Assembly: GCA_023213235.1 (NCBI GenBank)
Contig: CP096137.1
Location: 3,288,908-3,352,907, forward strand
Reading direction: 5' to 3'
DNA from: Elusimicrobiota bacterium
GTDB lineage: Bacteria > Elusimicrobiota > Elusimicrobia > UBA1565 > UBA9628
DNA length: 64,000 nt
Below, in pieces: positions 1-26,649 of the stretch. A program made the position numbers and the translations under genes. Under the pieces are notes generated by a model. That model saw nothing but the letters and a program-made list of their open reading frames with translations. It was not told where the DNA came from and did not search any database. The stretch's first letter is position 1; every line of letters starts with the position of its first letter.

Positions 1-1243
1 GCAGCACCGCCCGGAGATCGAAGTAGTTCTCGAGCAAGGTCGGGTTGCGGAAGGCCTGCGCGGCCGTCGCGCGGAAGGAGTGCGCCTCGCTCGGCGCGTA
101 GATCGCGCTTCCGCGGGGAGAATACTGCCAATCGGTGAACGGGTGGTGGTCGGCGCGTCCGCTCAAGACGAAGGTCCAGCGCTCGGTCGCCGCCCAAGAA
201 TTCTCGAAATAGAGGCCGTACAGCGCCTGGTCGCGGGTGCCCGGCGAGAAAAGGTTCGATCGGGCCGTGTTGCGGCGGTAGCTGGCGCCCGTGGTCAGAA
301 AGTTCGAGGCCGGCAGTTCGAAGGCGCGCTCGAAACTCGCGTCATAAGTGTCGTTGTGCACCCGAAACGGGAGCGTCGGATTCTCGCGGAACACGGTCCG
401 ACCGAAGTTCCAGAACAGCCGCGCCGTCGTCGCCCCGGTGCGCGCGTCGACGCGGGCGAAGCCCGTCTCGCCGTAGTCGAAGGACGGGCCGTTGCTGAGC
501 TGGACGTCGTGGTCGGAGACGCCGCCGGACACCGCGATGCGCGAGTCCTCGCCGAAATCGAAGGAGTACAGCGCGTGGACCTTGCCGACCGCCGAGGCCT
601 CGGCGGCCGCCACCGCGAACTTGTTCGTCGAGCGCCAGCCGAGCCCGAGTTTGTAGGCGTGCGCGCCGCGCCGGTCGCCGATCAGGGCCTGGCCGATGTG
701 GGTCGAGCGCTCGCCCCCGGTGTAGCTGAACACGCCGCCGCGCAGGCGATCGGGGGTCTTCGTGATGATGTTGATGACGCCGTGAACGGCGTTGCTGCCG
801 TAGAGCGCGGAGGCCGGACCTTCGACGACCTCGATGCGGTCGACCTCCTCGAGCGTGACCGGGATCGTCTCCCAGTTCGTGTAATCGAGAAAGCCGTTGA
901 GCACCGTCTTGCCGTCGAGCAGGACCAGGGTGCGGTTGTTCAGCACGGTGTTCATGCCGCGGATGCTGACGTCGCCGTGCGAGGTCCTGTCGTTCATCAC
1001 GTCGACGCCCGGCACCGCGCGCAGGGCGTCCCACAGCGTCTGGGCCCCGGAGGCGCGGATGTCCTCGTGGGTCACGACGTAGACGGTCGACGGGGACGTC
1101 GACGCGGGAGTCGGGCGGCGCGAGGCCGTGACGACCTTGGCCTCGGTCTGGAAGAAGTTGAACTCGTCGGGCGCGTCCTGCGCGCGGACGGGAGCGGCAT
1201 CGAGGAGCAGGGCGGACGTGAGCAGGACTCGGAGGGGTCGCAT
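1..1243 (-). CDS. TonB-dependent outer-membrane receptor (partial)
   Basis: The N-terminal 414 codons of a TonB-dependent receptor run off the left edge, so the C-terminal part of the barrel is missing. A signal peptide (starting MRPLRVLLTSALLL, Ala-rich, ending VRAQD) is followed by a short segment and a plug domain with recognisable family phrases: VTASRR, VYVVTHEDIRASGA, ALRAVPGVDV, SIRGMN, VLLDGK, VEVVEGPASALYG and VINIITK. The rest is beta-barrel strand sequence ending near AFRNPTLLENYF. Such receptors import siderophores, cobalamin or glycans through the outer membrane using TonB energy; the substrate cannot be told here. A TATCAT hexamer lies 15 bases upstream of the ATG on the minus strand. 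The reading frame is intact throughout. Confidence 0.9.
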   Translation of the reverse strand, partial: MRPLRVLLTSALLLDAAPVRAQDAPDEFNFFQTEAKVVTASRRPTPASTSPSTVYVVTHEDIRASGAQTLWDALRAVPGVDVMNDRTSHGDVSIRGMNTVLNNRTLVLLDGKTVLNGFLDYTNWETIPVTLEEVDRIEVVEGPASALYGSNAVHGVINIITKTPDRLRGGVFSYTGGERSTHIGQALIGDRRGAHAYKLGLGWRSTNKFAVAAAEASAVGKVHALYSFDFGEDSRIAVSGGVSDHDVQLSNGPSFDYGETGFARVDARTGATTARLFWNFGRTVFRENPTLPFRVHNDTYDASFERAFELPASNFLTTGASYRRNTARSNLFSPGTRDQALYGLYFENSWAATERWTFVLSGRADHHPFTDWQYSPRGSAIYAPSEAHSFRATAAQAFRNPTLLENYFDLRAVL

Positions 1244-1386
1244 ATATTAGGAACGACGATGATAGCGGACGCGCAAAGAGGTTCCCATGGCGGCGATATT
1301 TGGGCGGTTTGACCGCGATGTGACAACATCGAAAAGTGACGCCCCCGTCATGGCCGCCCGGCGCCGGGCGCGGCATCATCTCCATC

Positions 1387-2151
1387 ATGGAAGCAGCCTG
1401 GACCGACGACTCCGTCCGCCGCGCCGCGCGCGGACGCCTGAAGAAGGGCATCGTGCGCCTGTTCCTCGAGCAGGCCCGCGCCGAGGCCGCGGCCGCCGTG
1501 CGCAGCCGCCTCAGCTTCCGCTCGTCGCGCAACCCCGACGCGGTCCGCGCGTACTGCGCGATGACGCAGGCGGAGTTCGAGGGCATCAACGCGCGCCAGC
1601 GCTGGGCGAACTGGCGCACGATCCCGAAGACGCTGCGCGGACGCCTGCCGTCCCGGCCGTGCCGGGCGCTCGACCTGTGCTCCGGCGCGGGGCACTCGAC
1701 GGAGGTCCTCGCGTGGTGCCTGCCTCCCGGCTCGACTTTGGTGGGCCTCGAGTTCAACCCGGCCTTCGCGGACGCCGCCGCGGCCCGCGACTACCGGGAC
1801 GCGACCGGCGGACCGGCGCGCGTCTTCTTCCGCGCGCAATCGGTGCTCGATCCGTTCCTCGACGAGCGCGGCCTGCTCGTCGCCGCGGGGAGCGTCGACG
1901 TCGTGAACTCAAGCGGCGCGCTGGGCCTTCACTTCGACCGCGCGGCGCTCGGCGTCGTGGCCGATGAGATCTCCCGCGTCCTGCGGCCCGGCGGGCTGGC
2001 CGCCGTCGACTCCTGCCCGAAGGGAATCGGCCCCGACGAGATGTCGGAGCTCTTCGCCGCCCGCGGCTTCACCGAGGCGGGCCGCGCGCGCTCGTGCTTC
2101 CTCGACCGCTTCACCCAGCTCTGCCTCGTCAAGAACGGAGGATTTTCATGA
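1387..2151 (+). CDS. Class I SAM-dependent methyltransferase
   Basis: A 254-residue protein with a Rossmann methyltransferase core: the SAM-binding motif I is ALDLCSGAGHSTEVLA (about residues 94-109), an acidic loop 2 in VGLEFNP follows, and the post-motif ISRVLRPGGLAAVDSC is typical of class I enzymes. The substrate cannot be inferred. I chose the ATG at 1387; an in-frame ATG 17 codons upstream exists but adds unstructured sequence. Its stop overlaps the start of the CBS-domain gene in an ATGA, so the two are probably translated together. Confidence 0.8.
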   Translation: MEAAWTDDSVRRAARGRLKKGIVRLFLEQARAEAAAAVRSRLSFRSSRNPDAVRAYCAMTQAEFEGINARQRWANWRTIPKTLRGRLPSRPCRALDLCSGAGHSTEVLAWCLPPGSTLVGLEFNPAFADAAAARDYRDATGGPARVFFRAQSVLDPFLDERGLLVAAGSVDVVNSSGALGLHFDRAALGVVADEISRVLRPGGLAAVDSCPKGIGPDEMSELFAARGFTEAGRARSCFLDRFTQLCLVKNGGFS

Positions 2152-3038
2152 AGATCAAGGACCTGATGAGGCGCGGCGTGCAGGCGCTCGAGCCGGACGC
2201 CACCGTCGAGGACGCCGCGCGGCGCATGGCCGACGCCGGAGTCGGCAGCCTGCCCGTCGTCTCGAGCGGCAGGCCCGTCGGCGTGGTCACCGACCGCGAC
2301 ATCGTCGTGCGCGCGCTCGCCGAAGGCCTCAAGCCGAAGGAGACCGCCGTCGAGAGCGTCATGACCCCCGAGGTCGTCTACTGCCGGGAGGACGACGAGG
2401 CCGCCGACGCCGCCAAGCGCATGGCGCAGGCGCAGGTCCGCCGCCTGCTCGTGCTCGACGCGAAGGGCGCGCTCGTCGGCGTCGTCTCGCTCGGCGACCT
2501 CGCCGTCGAGGGCGAGCCGGCCGCGCGCGAGGCGCTCGCGGGGGTTTCCGCGCCCTCCGAGGAGCTCTCGCAGGGCACGCACTCCGGCGGCCCGCGCCTG
2601 CGCGGCGGCGGGGAGGGCGGCAGCCTGAGTTCGCTGATCAAGGACGAACTCGCCGCGGCGGAGACCTACCGCCAGGCGCTCGAGACCGTCCGCGGCGCGG
2701 AGGCCGAGGACCTGCGCCGCTTCGAGACCGAGCACGAGGAGGCCGCGCGCGTCCTGCAGGCCAAGCTCGCCGGGCTCGGCGTCGAGCCGCCCGCCGGCAC
2801 GGGGCTCTGGGGCGCTTGGGCGCGCGCGATCGAGGGCAGCGAGCGCTTCTTCGATGAAAGGGCCGTGCTCAAGATCCTCAAGCTCGGCGAGGAGCGCGGG
2901 GCCGCCGACTACGAAGAGGCGCTGCGCGACCCTGCGGTCGGCGCGGAGCTCCGGGCGCTCATCGTCGACTCCCTGCTCCCGGCCGCGACGGCGCGGGCGG
3001 CGGCTCTGGGGCGCCTCGTCGCGCGCCGGCGCGGCTGA
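2148..3038 (+). CDS. CBS-domain pair fused to a ferritin-like (DUF2383-type) domain
   Basis: A 296-residue cytosolic protein. Residues 1-120 hold two CBS motifs, with the hallmarks GSLPVV.GRPVGVVTDRDI and RRLLVLD.GALVGVVSLGDLA; such pairs bind adenosine nucleotides and sense energy state. After a glycine-rich linker (about residues 145-165), residues 165-280 form a helical domain starting SSLIKDELAAAETYRQAL that resembles ferritin-like DUF2383 four-helix bundles. CBS pairs with standalone BON or ferritin-like partners are known, but the role of this fusion is unknown. The gene overlaps the upstream methyltransferase by four bases, and its stop lies three bases from the convergent HtrA gene's stop. 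The start is fixed by the ATGA overlap and the KIKDLM CBS beginning. Confidence 0.8.
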   Translation: MKIKDLMRRGVQALEPDATVEDAARRMADAGVGSLPVVSSGRPVGVVTDRDIVVRALAEGLKPKETAVESVMTPEVVYCREDDEAADAAKRMAQAQVRRLLVLDAKGALVGVVSLGDLAVEGEPAAREALAGVSAPSEELSQGTHSGGPRLRGGGEGGSLSSLIKDELAAAETYRQALETVRGAEAEDLRRFETEHEEAARVLQAKLAGLGVEPPAGTGLWGAWARAIEGSERFFDERAVLKILKLGEERGAADYEEALRDPAVGAELRALIVDSLLPAATARAAALGRLVARRRG

Positions 3039-3041
3039 GCG

Positions 3042-4070
3042 CTACTGGATATTGACGAGCTTGACGGGCAGGACGAGCTCCTTGCCCGCGCGTTCGATGC
3101 GCACGGCGACCGTGTCGCCGGGCTTGTACCGGTCGAACGCGTTGTAAAGGTCGTCGAAGTCCCGCACCTTGTGCGACTCGACGCCGACGATGATGTCGCC
3201 GGCCGCGACGCGCCCGCCGGGCAGACGGCGCAGGCCGCGCAAGCCCGCCTTCGCCGCGGGCCCGCCGGGCGTGACCTCGTTGACGACGACGCCCGGCTTC
3301 TCGCCGATCAGGTAGTACTTCTGACCCGTGTTGAGGATCGTGATGCCCATGCCGGGCCGCACGACCTTGCCGTAGGCGATGAGCTCCGGCACGATGCGCG
3401 CGATGAAGGAGACGGGCACCGCGAACCCGATGCCGGCGCTGCCGCCCGAGCGGCTGTAGATCATCGTGTTCATGCCGATGAGGTTGCCGTCCGAGTCGAG
3501 CAGCGGGCCGCCGGAGTTCCCCGGATTGATCGCGGCGTCGGTCTGGATCATGTCTCGGATCGTGATGCCGCTGACGCCCTGGACCTCTCGGCCGAGCGCG
3601 GAGATCACGCCCGTCGTCAGCGTGTGGTCGAGGCCGAACGGGTTGCCGATGGCGATCGTCTTCTGCCCCACCTGCAGGGCCTCGAGCTTGCCGACGCGCA
3701 CGGGGACGAGGGCCTCGCGGCTCTTCTCGACGCGCAGCACCGCGATGTCCTTCGTCGGGTCGGCGCCGATGAGCTTGGCCTCGAGCTGGGTCTGGTCGCC
3801 GAGCGTCACGAGGAACGCGTTTCCGCCCTGCACGACATGGAAGTTCGTGACGATGTGGCCTTTCTTGTCCCAGACGAACCCGGAGCCCGTGCCCTGCGGG
3901 ATCGCCTGCTCGTCCATGTAGGGGCTCTGCGTGATCGCGACGTTCGTCACGTAGACGACGGAGCGCGAGGCGCCCTTGAACACCTTGATCGTGTTCTCCT
4001 CGTCGGCCAGCAGCGCGCGGGCGGGAAGGGCGCGGCCGAGAAGGAGGACGGCGAGGAGCAGCGGTCTCAT
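3042..4070 (-). CDS. Periplasmic trypsin-like serine protease with PDZ domain (HtrA/DegP family)
   Basis: A 342-residue secreted protease. A signal peptide (residues 1-20, ending PARAL) leads into a trypsin-like domain with the full triad: His78 in VTNFHVV, Asp108 in TKDIAVLRV and Ser186 in NPGNSGGPLL. The family phrase IGNPFGL is present. A single PDZ domain follows (about residues 235-340; PGVVVNEVTPGGPAAKAGLRG and GDIIVGVESHKV), so it is shorter than two-PDZ DegP and more like DegS or HhoA. The likely role is periplasmic protein quality control or regulated proteolysis. It shares a compact divergent promoter region with the methyltransferase at 4097 and appears leaderless: TAAAAT lies six bases before the ATG. 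Confidence 0.92.
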   Translation of the reverse strand: MRPLLLAVLLLGRALPARALLADEENTIKVFKGASRSVVYVTNVAITQSPYMDEQAIPQGTGSGFVWDKKGHIVTNFHVVQGGNAFLVTLGDQTQLEAKLIGADPTKDIAVLRVEKSREALVPVRVGKLEALQVGQKTIAIGNPFGLDHTLTTGVISALGREVQGVSGITIRDMIQTDAAINPGNSGGPLLDSDGNLIGMNTMIYSRSGGSAGIGFAVPVSFIARIVPELIAYGKVVRPGMGITILNTGQKYYLIGEKPGVVVNEVTPGGPAAKAGLRGLRRLPGGRVAAGDIIVGVESHKVRDFDDLYNAFDRYKPGDTVAVRIERAGKELVLPVKLVNIQ

Positions 4071-4096
4071 GGCCGGATTTTATATAATTACGGTCC
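4071..4096. promoter_or_regulatory. Compact divergent promoter with overlapping -10 elements
   Basis: The 26 bases between two divergent start codons contain ATTTTATATAATTA. Read on the plus strand this gives TATAAT at 4083-4088, eight bases before GTG at 4097. Read on the minus strand it gives TAAAAT (4082-4077), six bases before ATG at 4070. The two -10 boxes overlap and both place the transcription start at or near a start codon. Assignment as one symmetric bidirectional promoter is inference from sequence only. Confidence 0.55.
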
Positions 4097-5091
4097 GTGA
4101 CGACCTCCGCCCCCGCTTCCAACCCGAACTGCACGACCAGGACAAGCGCCCGACCCGGTGCCCCGCGTGCGGCTACGACGGCCCCGAGCACTCCAAGCCC
4201 TCCGCCGAGGCCGGCTTCGAGCTGCTCGACTGCCCGGACTGCGGCCTCGGGCGCACCTGGCCTCCGGTCCCCGGCTCCGAGATCGGGAAGTGGTACCCCG
4301 AGCAGTACTACGGCAAGACGAACGTGCGCTTCAACGCTCTGTTCGAGCGCATGATCCGCTGGTTCCGCTGGCGCCGCGCGGCCGTCCTGCACAACCGCGT
4401 GCCGCGCGGGCCCGTCCTCGACGTCGGCTGCGGGCGCGGCATGACGCTCGCCTTCCTGCGCGAGCTCGGCTACGAGTCCCACGGCCTCGAGCTCAGCGAG
4501 ACGGCCGCCGCCCACGCGCGCGACGTGCTGAAGCTCGACGTGGCCACCGGCGACTTCCTGACCTCGCCGCACGAGAAGAACCGCTACAACGCGGTCATCT
4601 TCCATCACTCGCTCGAGCACTTCGCCAACCCGGTCGCCGCCGTCGCGCGCGCCTACGAACTGCTGAAGCCGGGCGGGGTTCTGTTCATCGCGGTGCCCAA
4701 CTACGGCTCCTGGCAGGCCCGCCTGTTCGGCCGCTTCTGGTTCCACGTCGACGCGCCCCGCCACTACTGGCACTTCACGATCAAGTCGCTCGACGCGATC
4801 CTCGCGCGCCACCGCTTCCGCGTCGTCCAGCTCGACCATTTCAGCTTCGAGCAGAATCCCTACGGCCTGCTGCAGTCGATGTTCAACGCCGCGGGCTTCC
4901 GCTTCAACCTGCTCTACTCGCTGCTGAAGAACTCGACGGCCCGCACCGACACGGCCCTGCGCTACCCCGTCCAGAGCCTCCTGCACGCCGCGCTGCTCCC
5001 CTTCCTCGTGCCGTTCGTCGTCGCCGCGACCGTCCTCGAGACCGCCTTCAAGTCCGGCGGCACCTTCGAGATGTACGCGTTCAAGGAATGA
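4097..5091 (+). CDS. Zinc-ribbon plus class I SAM methyltransferase (probable frameshift near start)
   Basis: The protein starts with a Cys-pair ribbon (CPACGYDG about 25 bases after the N-terminus, then CPDCGLGR) followed by a Methyltransf_23-like domain: VLDVGCGRGMTLAFLRELG is motif I, VIFHHSLEHFANP is the post-I region, and LLKPGGVLFIAVPNYGSW follows. The C-terminal 100 residues are hydrophobic. This architecture is common among methyltransferases in polysaccharide loci, which fits the flanking glycosyltransferases. The coding frame is clear from about 4115. I start it at GTG 4097 because TATAAT sits eight bases upstream; this needs one missing C in the C-run at 4110-4114. The alternative is an in-frame ATG at 4069, inside the opposite gene. 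The stop overlaps the next start (ATGA). Confidence 0.75.
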
Positions 5092-6528
5092 GCCGGCGCG
5101 GCCTGCTCGCCGCCGCGATCTTCGGGCTTTCCCTCCTCGTCCACGCCAAGGGCCTGACCGCCCCCTGCTCGACTACCACTTCCACCGCCAGGTCAACACC
5201 GCCGCGATCGCCAGAAACTACGCGCGCGAGGACCGGCCGATCCATCGCCCCCGGCTCGACTGGGCCGGAGCCGACGATCATCTCGCCGGCACGGAGCTGC
5301 CCGTCTACATGTGGCTGTACGGAAAGCTGTGGCCCGTCGCCGGCCTCGGCGAGGTCTGGGGGCGGCTGATCTCCGCCCTGTCCTCCGCGGCCTGCGCCGT
5401 CCTGCTGCTCGGGCTCTACCGCCGCGAGTTCGGCGAGGAGGCCGGGGCCTGGGGCGCCGCGGTCTTCACCGTCCTGCCCGTGGAGGTCTACTTCGGCCGC
5501 ACGGTCCAACCCGAGGGCTTCGCCCTGCTCGCGCTCGTCGGCGCGCTCGTCGCCTGGGAGAAGTCGCTTCGCCCCGGCCGCCCGTGGGGCTGGTGGGCGC
5601 TCGCCGTGTTCTGCGCGTTCGTCGCCGTCGGCGAGAAGCTGCCGTACGCGCACGTGCTGGCCCCCTCGCCGGGTTGACCTGGCGGCGGCTCGGAAAGAAG
5701 ACGCTGACCGACGGGCGCCTGTACGCGGCGGGGCTGCTCTCGATGGGCGCGGTGATCGCGTGGTACGCGTGGGCTCGAACGGGGCTCTACGTCGTGCCGA
5801 CGCGCGCCGGTGAGTACTCCAATCTCCTCGCCTGGTCGCGCCTGCCGTACTTCATCCAGTTCCAGCTTCTCTCGCGCTGGCCCGAGGTCGTGATGACCTA
5901 CGGCGGGACGGCGCTGTTCTTCGTCGGCGCCAAGGACGTCCTCTGGAAGCAGCGCGAGGTCTTCTGGTTGGCGTGGTTCGGCGGCGTCGCCGTTCATCTC
6001 TTCGCGATGGGCGGCTACTCGCATTACCACGAGTACACCGCGCTGCCCCTGGCCCCCGTCGCCGCCGGCCTCATCGGCGTCGGGATCGCGCGCCTGCGCG
6101 AAAAGGCCTCGGCCCTTCCCAAGCCCAAACGCTCGCTCGCCTACGCGGGCCTCGCCTTTCTCGTGCTGTCGATCCCGGCGCACGCGGCGGGACGGATCGG
6201 GCACTGGTACAAGCAGGGCTTCGACTTCACCTCGCGCGCCGGCGAGGCCGCCGCCGCGGTCAGCGGGCCCGACGATCTATTTTACACGAACTGCCAGGCC
6301 TCGTCGGTCCTGCTCTACTACCTCGACCGGCGCGGCTGGTCCGACGAGCTCGACGTCCAGCCCGATCTCGCCGGCGGCCTCGTCGACCGGGCCGCGGCCA
6401 AGGGCGCGCGCTTCATCGCCTCGGAGAAGCGCGGCCTGTTCGCCGAGGGCGGCGCGATGTGGAAGCGCTTCCGCGCGAAGGGCGCTCCCGTCTGGGACGA
6501 CGGGAAGCTCGTGATCTTCCCGCTCTAG
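5088..6528 (+). CDS. Membrane glycosyltransferase, GT39/ArnT-like (two frameshifts)
   Basis: Restoring one C in each of the C-runs at 5161-5165 and 5661-5665 gives a continuous 480-residue polytopic membrane protein. The N-terminal helix (GLLAAAIFGLSLLVHAKG) is followed by an acidic loop with DYHFHRQVNTAAIARNY and GTELPVYMWLYGKLW, then repeated hydrophobic helices. This pattern matches dolichol/undecaprenyl-phosphate-sugar mannosyl/aminoarabinosyl transferases (GT39/GT83 clan). It probably transfers a sugar from a lipid carrier onto an envelope acceptor. It overlaps the methyltransferase by four bases, and its TAG stop interlocks with the stop of the convergent gene (CTAG at 6525-6528). The frame breaks look like sequencing errors rather than decay because both flanks keep full coding quality. 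Confidence 0.75.
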
Positions 6529-23549: not shown

Positions 23550-23741
23550 CAGTGCCATCGGCCCTCCCGAGAGGGGCGCGGCGCCGATATCCTAAGGGTA
23601 CAAGGCGCTTTCCTCCTCCTACCCGCGCGAGCGGGATCCCGGAGGAAACGCGACGCGGATCGCAGGAAGTAACGCCCCCTATCGACCGCGGCTCGACCGA
23701 AGCCCGCCTCTTTTCCCAGGGAGGCGGGCTTCTTCGTTTTT
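23550..23741 (+). ncRNA. Probable independently transcribed small structured RNA
   Basis: No convincing protein lies in this roughly 190-base stretch. TATCCT at 23540-23545 or at 23588-23593 could be the -10. The first helix pairs ATCGGC (23557-23562) with GCCGAT (23583-23588). The second is a strong hairpin: TTTCCTCC (23610-23617) with GGAGGAAA (23641-23648), enclosing CCCGC-GCGA-GCGGG, a GNRA tetraloop. The stretch ends in a good intrinsic terminator, and the downstream gene has its own promoter, so this is unlikely to be that gene's riboswitch. A 6S-like regulator is one possibility, but I see no diagnostic motif; it is not SRP RNA or tmRNA. Confidence 0.4.
23700..23741 (+). terminator. 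Rho-independent terminator
   Basis: An 11-bp stem AAGCCCGCCTC (23700-23710) with GAGGCGGGCTT (23721-23731) is followed by CTTCGTTTTT. It ends the putative small RNA just before the amidase promoter. Confidence 0.8.
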
Positions 23742-23755
23742 GGTATCCTCCCTCC

Positions 23756-24530
23756 ATGGAATTCCGCCTGGGCGTCGTCCAGAACTCCCCGAAGTTCCTC
23801 AAGGGGAAGGAGAATCTCGAAGCCTGCCTCGCGGAGATGGAGCGCCACGAGGCCGACCTGTGGGTGCTTCCCGAGTTCTTCGCCTCCGGCTACAACTTCC
23901 GCACGAAGGCCGAGGCCGCCAAGTGCGCCGAGCCCGCCGACGGCCCCCTGGTCGCGCGCCTCAAGGATTGGTCGGCGGCCCACGACTGCGCGCTCGTGGC
24001 CGGCTTCCTGAAAAGGCCGGCGGCAAGCTCTACAACTCGGCCGTCCTCGTCGACGGCGCCAGGAGCCGCGTCTACCGCAAGACCCATCTCTTCGGCAGCG
24101 AGAAGCGCTTCTTCACGGCCGGAACGACGGGCTTCTGGGTCGACAACGTGCGCGGAGCCAAGGTCGGCCCGATGATCTGCTTCGACTGGTTCTTCCCCGA
24201 GTCGGCGCGCACGCTCGCCCTGCTGGGCGCCGAGATCATCGCCCACCCCTCGAACCTGGTCCTGCCGTGGGCCCCCGAGGGAATGAAGATCCGCTCGCTC
24301 GAGAACCGGGTCTTCTCCGCCACCGCCAACCGCGTCGGGGCCGAGCACGGGCTCGGCTTCATCGGCCAGTCCCAGGTGGCCGCCACCAACGGCTCTTTGC
24401 TCGTGCGCCTTTCCCCGACCGCCCGGGCGCCGCCGTCGTCGTCATCGACCCCGCGGTCGCCCGTGAGAAGAAGGTCCACCCCGCCTGCGACCTGTTCAAG
24501 GACCGCCGGCCCTCCAAGTATGGCCTCTAA
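23756..24530 (+). CDS. Carbon-nitrogen hydrolase (nitrilase superfamily amidase; two frameshifts)
   Basis: Restoring one base near 24008-24014 and one C in 24413-24416 gives 258 residues. The Glu-Lys-Cys triad is complete: Glu40 in WVLPEFFASGYN, Lys109 in VYRKTHLFG and Cys142 in MICFDWFFPE. The superfamily hydrolyses amides or nitriles in the cytosol, for example omega-amidase or N-carbamoyl-putrescine amidase; the substrate is open. TATCCT lies six bases before the ATG, directly after the preceding terminator (leaderless pattern). The last codons overlap the start of the thioesterase gene. Confidence 0.85.
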
Positions 24531-25004: not shown

Positions 25005-26219
25005 ATGCCCTCGGCTCGAGGCCTCGGCCTTCGAGAGCTCCTGCGTCCTCTCACGAAGGACCGCTTTTTCCGTGATCACTGGGAAAAGCGGCCGCTGCGT
25101 CTGAGCGGGGACGCACGCCGTTTCGAGAGCTTGCTTCGCCTCAGGGACGTCGACTCGCTCGCCTGCTTCGGCGTGCTGAGCTCATCCGAATCGGACGTGC
25201 GCCTCGCGAAGACCGAAGGCGGAAAGTTCGCCAGCCGCCCCGTGCGGACGTCCGCGAGCGGAATTCCCGACCCCTACGGCCTCTACCGCGCGCACCACGA
25301 AGGGCAGACTTTAATCGTCAATCGCGTGGACGCCCGCTGGCGGCCGATCGCGGCGCTGTGCCGCGCGCTCGAATGGGAGCTCCATCACCGCGTCAACGCG
25401 AACCTCTACTTCACCCCGCCGCGCGCCCAAGGCTTCGCGCCCCACTTCGACACGCACGACGTGTTCATCCTCCAGCTCGAGGGCGAGAAGGACTGGCGCT
25501 TCTTCGGATCCGTCCCGCTGCCGCTCGAGGAGGACAACGAGCTCCGCGGCCCTGAGGCTTCGGCGCCCGGACGCGCTAGCCGTACCCTGACCTTGCGGCC
25601 CGGCGACTTGCTCTACGTTCCGCGCGGCGTCGTCCACGATGCGGTCAGCCGGGACTCCTCGTCCTTGCATCTCACCGTCGGCGTTCACGTCACGCGCTGG
25701 CTCGATCTCGCCCGACAAGCGCTCGAACGCGAGGCGCGGGCGGATGACCGCCTTCGCGAAGCGCTGCCGCCCGGCTTCCTCGATCCAGGCCGCCGTCCCG
25801 CCTTGCGCGCCCGGCTCGGCGAGCTTCTCGCCGCCGCCGCGAAAGGACGAGCCGCGGACCTGGCGGTCGACGGCATCTCCGAGCGCCGGCTCCAAAGCGG
25901 CTCGCCGCTGCCCGACGGCCACTTCTCGGCGCTCGAGCGCGCGACGAAGCTGTCGGATGACACTTTCGTCGCTCGCCGAGGCGCGATGCCGTGCGCGGCC
26001 TTTCGCGAGGGCCGCCGCGCGGGAATCCGCTTTCCGGGCAACACGGTGACGGGACCGGAGGAGATCGCGTCCGCGCTACGCTATGTCGCCGCAAACCGCC
26101 GCTTCAAGGTATCCGACCTGCCGGGACCGATAAGCGCGGGTTCGAAGCGGACTCTCGTGCGAAAATTGATCAGGGAAGGCCTGCTGACGTTCGCCGGACA
26201 ATCGGGGAGGAACTCATGA
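25005..26219 (+). CDS. JmjC/cupin-4 Fe(II)/2-oxoglutarate oxygenase (ribosomal-oxygenase-like)
   Basis: A 404-residue intact protein. The JmjC-type iron ligands are His147 and Asp149 in APHFDTHDVF, and His211 in YVPRGVVHDAV; Lys162 in LEGEKDWRFFG is the expected 2-oxoglutarate contact. The C-terminal 150 residues look like the dimerisation plus winged-helix part of RoxA/YcfD-type protein hydroxylases (ISAGSKRTLVRKLIREGLL). Those enzymes hydroxylate side chains of proteins. Its stop overlaps the start of the next gene (ATGA), which encodes a peptide with a nitrile-hydratase-like leader, so that peptide is the natural candidate substrate. It starts one base after the thioesterase stop. Confidence 0.85.
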   Translation: MPSARGLGLRELLRPLTKDRFFRDHWEKRPLRLSGDARRFESLLRLRDVDSLACFGVLSSSESDVRLAKTEGGKFASRPVRTSASGIPDPYGLYRAHHEGQTLIVNRVDARWRPIAALCRALEWELHHRVNANLYFTPPRAQGFAPHFDTHDVFILQLEGEKDWRFFGSVPLPLEEDNELRGPEASAPGRASRTLTLRPGDLLYVPRGVVHDAVSRDSSSLHLTVGVHVTRWLDLARQALEREARADDRLREALPPGFLDPGRRPALRARLGELLAAAAKGRAADLAVDGISERRLQSGSPLPDGHFSALERATKLSDDTFVARRGAMPCAAFREGRRAGIRFPGNTVTGPEEIASALRYVAANRRFKVSDLPGPISAGSKRTLVRKLIREGLLTFAGQSGRNS

Positions 26220-26649
26220 AGAAGGAGAAAAATTCCGCGTGGACGGACAAAGCCGACGACTCGGCGAAGTTGTGGGTGACGCACATGTACTTTCTGGCGC
26301 GCAAGGCCGCTGTCGACCCGAAGTTCAAGGCTCTGCTCAAGTCGGACCCGCCGCGGCGGCGCGAGTCATCGGCATAGGAGTCCCCAAGGGCGGCAAAGTC
26401 ACTGTCGTCGAGAGCACGGCCAAAAACTTACTCCTTGTCCTGCCGCCGGCGCCCGGGACGATCACTTTCCCGGGCATCGAGATCTCCGAGGAGACTCTCA
26501 AGGCGACCGGGGACTACGAGACGTTCGCCTTCAAGGATGACTTTGATATTCATCGCAACAAGGACGCGAAGATCGGGAACAACGACGGCAGCCAGGATCC
26601 GAAGCAGAAGGATTCCGACACGTCGGGAAATGCCGGCGGAAAGGACTGA
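26216..26649 (+). CDS. NHLP-type (nitrile hydratase-like leader) peptide, candidate RiPP precursor (one frameshift)
   Basis: Restoring one C in 26347-26349 gives 144 residues. Residues about 30-80 match the nitrile-hydratase-alpha-like leader found in proteusin-type precursors: AAVDPKFKALLKSDP, AARVIGIGVPKGGKVTVV and the characteristic LLLVLPPAPG. The remaining roughly 65 residues (TITFPGIEISEETLKATGDY, later an Asn/Asp/Lys-rich tail ending GNAGGKD) would be the core or tail. No iron-binding Cys cluster of real nitrile hydratase is present, so enzymatic activity is unlikely. GGGGAGG precedes the ATG, and the ATGA overlap couples it to the JmjC oxygenase. There is no recognisable radical-SAM enzyme, transporter or protease in the window. 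Confidence 0.7.

Follow-up and report, generated by a model that had tools for sequence, protein, structure and literature searches.

Two genes of an Elusimicrobiota bacterium overlap by four nucleotides, one encoding a JmjC oxygenase and the other a peptide with a nitrile hydratase-like leader (NHLP). The locus raises the question of whether an oxygenase and its neighboring peptide can by themselves form a RiPP system, as an initial annotation had proposed. The pair was analyzed within a 64,000 nucleotide stretch of DNA, here termed the window. The answer given below is that the JmjC and NHLP genes probably form a RiPP-like module of minimal size, whose enzyme would oxidize the Asp/Asn/Lys-rich tail of the peptide.

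The JmjC oxygenase

The JmjC open reading frame, positions 25005–26219 of the window (+ strand), is unbroken and encodes a 404 aa 2-oxoglutarate (2OG)/Fe(II) oxygenase with the architecture of MINA53 and NO66. In a Pfam profile search it scores 94 bits for JmjC_2 (PF08007; cut-off 22 bits, E-value = 6.6e-27), which bears out the enzyme type first assigned to it. MINA53 (E-value = 2e-24) and NO66 (E-value = 2e-23) are the best solved relatives by PDB sequence match. The AlphaFold2 model of the enzyme has a mean pLDDT of 82, and residues 1–399 align with NO66 (4ccn) at a Z-score of 30.2. The residues initially named as catalytic, His147 and Asp149 (HFD, 25443–25451, + strand) and His211 (25635–25637, + strand), form the metal triad and are invariant in an alignment of 13 JmjC_2 relatives. 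Lys162 (25488–25490, + strand) is likewise invariant in the 13 enzymes. It aligns with the lysine of the MINA53 EGEK sequence, and we take it to be the 2OG-binding lysine.

One position differs from MINA53, in which the substrate histidine is reportedly bound by Ser257 (PMC9994133). The alignment, read by eye, places Gly226 of the window enzyme at this position, and the glycine is near-invariant among the 13 aligned relatives. Judged from sequence, recognition of a histidine is thus probably not MINA53-like.

The C-terminal domain (25962–26195, + strand) was also folded alone (AlphaFold2, pLDDT 88). The predicted model shows three strands followed by three helices, a beta3-alpha3 winged helix like that of known RREs. 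Among solved structures, MINA53 (Z = 11.9) and NO66 come closest, each with its C-terminal domain. Lower matches are the PbtF RRE (8t19, Z = 7.1) and MccB, McbB, LynD, ThcOx, TbiB1 and PqqD (Z = 5.9–6.4), the RRE scores of 5.9–7.1 being in the middling range by the comparison tool's own grading. The ribosomal oxygenases share this C-terminal fold; thus leader binding is possible, but the fold is no proof of it. RRE-like folds fused to PF08007 domains are also described in an independent study, which finds bacterial homologues of its eukaryotic examples in RiPP-like contexts (PMC12710340). This RRE-like domain is absent from the initial annotation, as are the two further features treated below, the lack of a GG motif or GG-type exporter and the fact that enzymes of this type are known from RiPP pathways.

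The NHLP peptide

The peptide gene follows the JmjC gene on the + strand. Its ATG (26216–26218) and the JmjC stop codon (26217–26219) share the sequence ATGA at 26216–26219, and the overlap is where it had been annotated. The proposed 144 residue peptide is present as a read-through across a frame change, although no single open frame in the assembly encodes it. Codons 1–44 (26216–26347, + strand) are in one frame, the break falls in a run of C at 26348–26349 (+ strand), and a second frame (26350–26649, + strand) provides 99 codons and a stop, consisting of the remainder of the leader, an I-SEET-L motif and a 49-residue tail. With X at the break, residues 27–96 of the read-through peptide match the NHLP profile TIGR03793 with an E-value of 8.3e-10. 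The leader assignment is supported by this E-value, but the score of 38.4 bits does not reach the curated threshold of 50.9. Taken separately, the second half matches TIGR03793 (E-value = 3.3e-5), and the first half gives no match. The break is most likely an assembly error, since both flanks, when joined in the read-through, match successive parts of TIGR03793, and a nitrilase-like gene and the second JmjC gene of this genome each lie over three frames as well. The nitrilase-like gene adjoins the pair (window 23740–24530) and is spread over three reading frames.

There is no cysteine in the peptide, which excludes both a nitrile hydratase and a lanthipeptide. Nitrile hydratase identity is ruled out by the missing Cys metal motif, whose absence had been pointed out initially, and by a weak match to the nitrile hydratase alpha family (PF02979, 18.8 bits vs a cut-off of 27.2). 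Lanthipeptide identity is ruled out by the lack of cysteine together with the lack of a LanM gene among the nearby open reading frames: neither a radical SAM nor a LanM gene was seen, on reading by eye, among those listed for 18–34 kb of the window, in agreement with the initial annotation. Scans of the locus with Rfam and for promoters and terminators gave no signal above chance.

The end of the leader carries a hydrophobic-X4-hydrophobic motif in all five JmjC-paired peptides found in this work: I-SEET-L in the window, and L-EDGD-L, I-PDAD-L, L-SEKD-L and M-TEVE-F in the others. In the NHLP protein MprE7, an L(X)4L motif is needed to engage the RRE of its YcaO enzyme; the same study finds that NHLP leaders fold into stable domains (PMC12455567). 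None of the five peptides has a GG cleavage motif after the leader motif. GG motifs are present in the exporter-linked NHLPs of three other genomes (G022, G025 and G399). No GG-type exporter was seen near either pair of the Elusimicrobiota genome, which is 84% complete and frame-broken; its single Peptidase_C39 match reads as a stand-alone lipoprotein-like protein and not as an exporter.

The tails in this genome are 49 and 36 residues long, are rich in Asp, Lys, Asn, Gly and Ser, and both contain a DDF[D/N] segment. The window tail contains 10 Asp, 7 Lys and 4 Asn, in keeping with the Asn/Asp/Lys-rich composition noted at first. Tails of the Chlorobiota and Marinobacter peptides described below extend about 15 residues past the leader motif and have a similar end, E[LM]F (L025:1660–1944, L026:4664–4960, L027:4658–4930). 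There is no motif common to the long tails of this genome and these short tails. What would place the window peptide among proteusin precursors is the 49-residue tail and the adjacent JmjC gene, the latter as a putative maturase.

Occurrence of the pair and genomic context

A TIGR03793 profile search of the genome gave two convincing NHLP matches and a third with an E-value of 0.28. There are two PF08007 genes above the cut-off, and each has an NHLP gene just downstream. The second pair is found at C1:513.7–515.4 kb. Its peptide is unbroken (153 residues, C1:513.9–514.2 kb) and scores 29.4 bits against TIGR03793 (cut-off 50.9), and its JmjC gene lies over three frames. The JmjC proteins of the two pairs are 42% identical, the peptides about 30%. 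No RiPP genes were recognized in the 19 kb around the second pair. Random placement in the genome would give two such neighbors with a probability of about 1e-6.

PF08007 was not found in 294 other genomes of the phylum at an E-value of 1e-5 or better. With the family present in one of 295 phylum genomes, the pairs were probably acquired, loss elsewhere being the alternative. Within the same family, one genome (G022) has a JmjC relative that is weaker and different. This genome carries an NHLP cluster (L020:897–14251) with several precursors, a GNAT-like protein and a peptide arginase (FlmR/OhkR family), as well as a Cupin_8 JmjC-like protein, an apparent LanM-type protein and apparent NHLP-type exporter genes. 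Short NHLP-like proteins of about 67–82 residues, with almost no sequence after the leader, are encoded at L022:7612–7815, G014:C25:65473–66285 (four tandem copies) and L023:5120–5329; their TIGR03793 matches are weak.

A search of a species collection with an alignment of the two JmjC proteins of this genome, in which no NHLP sequence was used, returned six loci. Three of these, two in Chlorobiota (L025 and L027) and one in Marinobacter (L026), have an NHLP gene 40–80 nt upstream of the JmjC gene. The gene order differs, the peptide gene following the JmjC gene in the Elusimicrobiota genome and preceding it in Chlorobiota and Marinobacter. The Marinobacter peptide scores 60.1 bits against TIGR03793, over the cut-off, and a gene for a DUF4135 (LanM dehydratase-type) protein lies downstream. 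In the two Chlorobiota (L025:1050–3222 and L027:454–6203) the pair comes just after a gene that has the same orientation and resembles hydrogenase maturation proteases (confirmed by a family search in L027 only), and in L027 genes reading like [NiFe]-hydrogenase subunits precede the pair. Thus homologous peptides recur beside JmjC genes, in the second pair of the genome, in two Chlorobiota and in one Marinobacter. The JmjC-NHLP pairing is real, and chance neighborhood of the two genes is ruled out by its recurrence. Present twice in one genome and also in unrelated bacteria, the pair looks like a genuine, very small peptide-modifying system. No second enzyme of the Chlorobiota type was found among 295 genomes from the order concerned, and none of the Marinobacter type among 163 genomes from that family; the modules are thus sporadic.

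No NHLP gene is present at two of the remaining loci, L028 and L029. In L028 (Phenylobacterium), an XyeB-like radical SAM maturase gene is directly upstream of the JmjC gene. L029 (Neorhizobium tomejilense, 1040–5747) shows a DUF4135 (LanM-type) gene and a small protein with weak similarity to Nif11, together with three consecutive genes of which two are PF08007 and the middle one is of similar size without a Pfam match. The closest relative (38%) is from Scytonema (L024), where inspection of a 7.5-kb stretch revealed no RiPP gene.

Relatives of the enzyme also participate in larger clusters. One is within a Nif11/LanM/NHLP-exporter cluster on a Pseudanabaena plasmid, one is beside YcaO and TfuA on a Paraburkholderia plasmid, and those on Rhizobium and Mycetohabitans plasmids are beside radical SAM/SPASM genes. 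One stretch of a Paraburkholderia megapolitana plasmid combines four cupin-domain genes with YcaO, TfuA, ThiF-family, O-methyltransferase and MFS genes (L059:750–13669), and on an 8.3 kb plasmid of Acinetobacter lwoffii genes for a JmjC-like cupin protein, an O-methyltransferase and an MFS transporter are neighbors (L062:290–3524). Among the plasmid records with similar enzymes, the best NHLP match has an E-value of 0.02 and covers only a small part of a protein annotated as a Nif11-type precursor. G399 has a JmjC_2 gene about 13–18 kb from six NHLP genes and nearer to their apparent exporter genes. A scan of a viral collection with the enzyme alignment gave no relative. From the plasmid, G399 and G022 contexts, oxygenases of the JmjC fold are frequent RiPP companions, with the two-gene form at the stripped-down end of the range.

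The same contexts bear on a possible but unlikely reading, that the two genes belong to a larger RiPP pathway and that genes for its further maturases, its protease and its exporter are located at other sites of the genome. The multi-enzyme clusters around the enzyme relatives and the dehydratase-like gene added at the Marinobacter locus would fit such a pathway, and at 84% completeness part of the genome is missing from the assembly. However, the lone Peptidase_C39 protein is of the lipoprotein-like kind, the peptides lack the GG motif cut by such exporters, and no RiPP gene is found in the 19 kb around the second pair or in the open reading frames listed around the window pair.

Proposed function of the pair and comparison with known systems

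The RiPP interpretation, first put forward from sequence, is partly supported, by recurrence of the pair, by the catalytic residues and by the absence of a nitrile hydratase site; the NHLP match is significant by E-value but scores below the curated cut-off. This low score and the frame break of the window peptide count against it, as do the differing gene order, the dissimilar tails and the three enzyme-search loci where no NHLP gene was seen. We infer that the JmjC enzyme modifies the peptide. In the proposed module, the N-terminal 80–95 residues of the peptide would fold as an NHLP leader, and the end of the leader, with its I(X)4L motif, may bind to the C-terminal, RRE-like domain of the enzyme. 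With the leader bound in this way, the tail, rich in Asp, Asn and Lys, would be offered to the Fe(II)/2OG center, where one or more side chains would be hydroxylated or, less likely, cross-linked. The candidate site is perhaps around the DDF[D/N] segment common to the two tails of this genome. The product would then be released, or be active, without GG-type leader cleavage.

A related possibility is that the leader is never removed, and that the folded NHLP protein with its oxidized tail is itself the intracellular working product, for example an oxygen- or 2OG-responsive protein. The position of the pair after hydrogenase-related genes in two Chlorobiota would suit such a role, which we consider quite unlikely.

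Less probable still is a role of the NHLP protein as adaptor or stabilizing subunit, rather than substrate, for action of the JmjC enzyme on another protein. To our knowledge, the NHLP proteins characterized to date are precursors, and the 36–49 residue tails in this genome also argue against an adaptor. What could be taken in its favor is that the Chlorobiota and Marinobacter peptides have only about 15 residues beyond the leader motif and no GG motif, and that NHLP leaders form stable folded domains (PMC12455567).

Finally, that the enzyme is an ordinary ribosomal-protein hydroxylase of the RoxA/NO66 type beside an unrelated NHLP gene is very improbable. In its favor, NO66, MINA53 and YcfD are the closest matches both by structure and by PDB sequence. 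Genomic context argues against this role, in that the JmjC-NHLP pairing is recurrent and JmjC_2 is absent from the 294 other phylum genomes searched. In the tree, most JmjC_2 genes of a Chlorobiota-centered sample are separated from the RiPP-context enzymes (moderate fork support, 86/76), and 11 of the 12 other JmjC_2-bearing genomes of that sample have no NHLP. In addition, Gly226 stands where MINA53 has its histidine-binding serine. The exception in the tree is one JmjC_2 gene of the sample, L047, a long branch placed among the RiPP-context enzymes.

If the minimal module is correct, it would rank with the smallest systems of the RiPP-like kind, with one oxygenase and one folded-leader substrate in unrelated phyla, and would tie the ribosomal-oxygenase fold, found in bacteria and humans, to peptide maturation. 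The pair would also offer a simple case for how an RRE-like domain reads a folded NHLP leader, and the lack of a GG motif raises the question of the role of the peptide if the leader stays on.

Several elements of the module are already known: hydroxylation of RiPP cores by JmjC enzymes, an oxygenated proteusin precursor, and PF08007 in RiPP contexts. BipG and PbsQ are JmjC/cupin 2OG oxygenases encoded beside RiPP precursors and shown to hydroxylate core ornithine (PMC12707348, PMC12257519). The likeness to the window enzyme is at the level of the fold and of gene neighborhood; BipG and PbsQ are late-acting and are found in clusters with MNIO, arginase, B12-radical SAM and protease genes. In the pythonamide pathway, EreI adds one oxygen to a proteusin precursor; it is described as a member of the aspartinyl-asparaginyl beta-hydroxylase family, belongs to a four-maturase cluster, and acted only on the methylated core (PMC9259500). 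Proteusins such as pythonamide share the NHLP-type leader with the peptides reported here, but in the present pairs JmjC_2 occurs alone, there is no GG motif, and no exporter was found. NO66, MINA53 and YcfD/RoxA share the whole-chain fold, the metal triad, the 2OG lysine and the C-terminal winged helix; they differ in that here the genomic partner is an NHLP peptide and Gly226 replaces the histidine-binding serine. The PF08007-RRE proteins have the same fusion of PF08007 to an RRE-like fold, but the passage on these contexts names no NHLP pairing or two-gene system, and NHLP is absent from its main text (PMC12710340). A literature search for NHLP together with JmjC, with most subscription journals outside its coverage, returned no match. 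The free-standing NHLP-JmjC_2 pair, with neither GG motif nor exporter, is absent from the papers covered and looks like a new variant.
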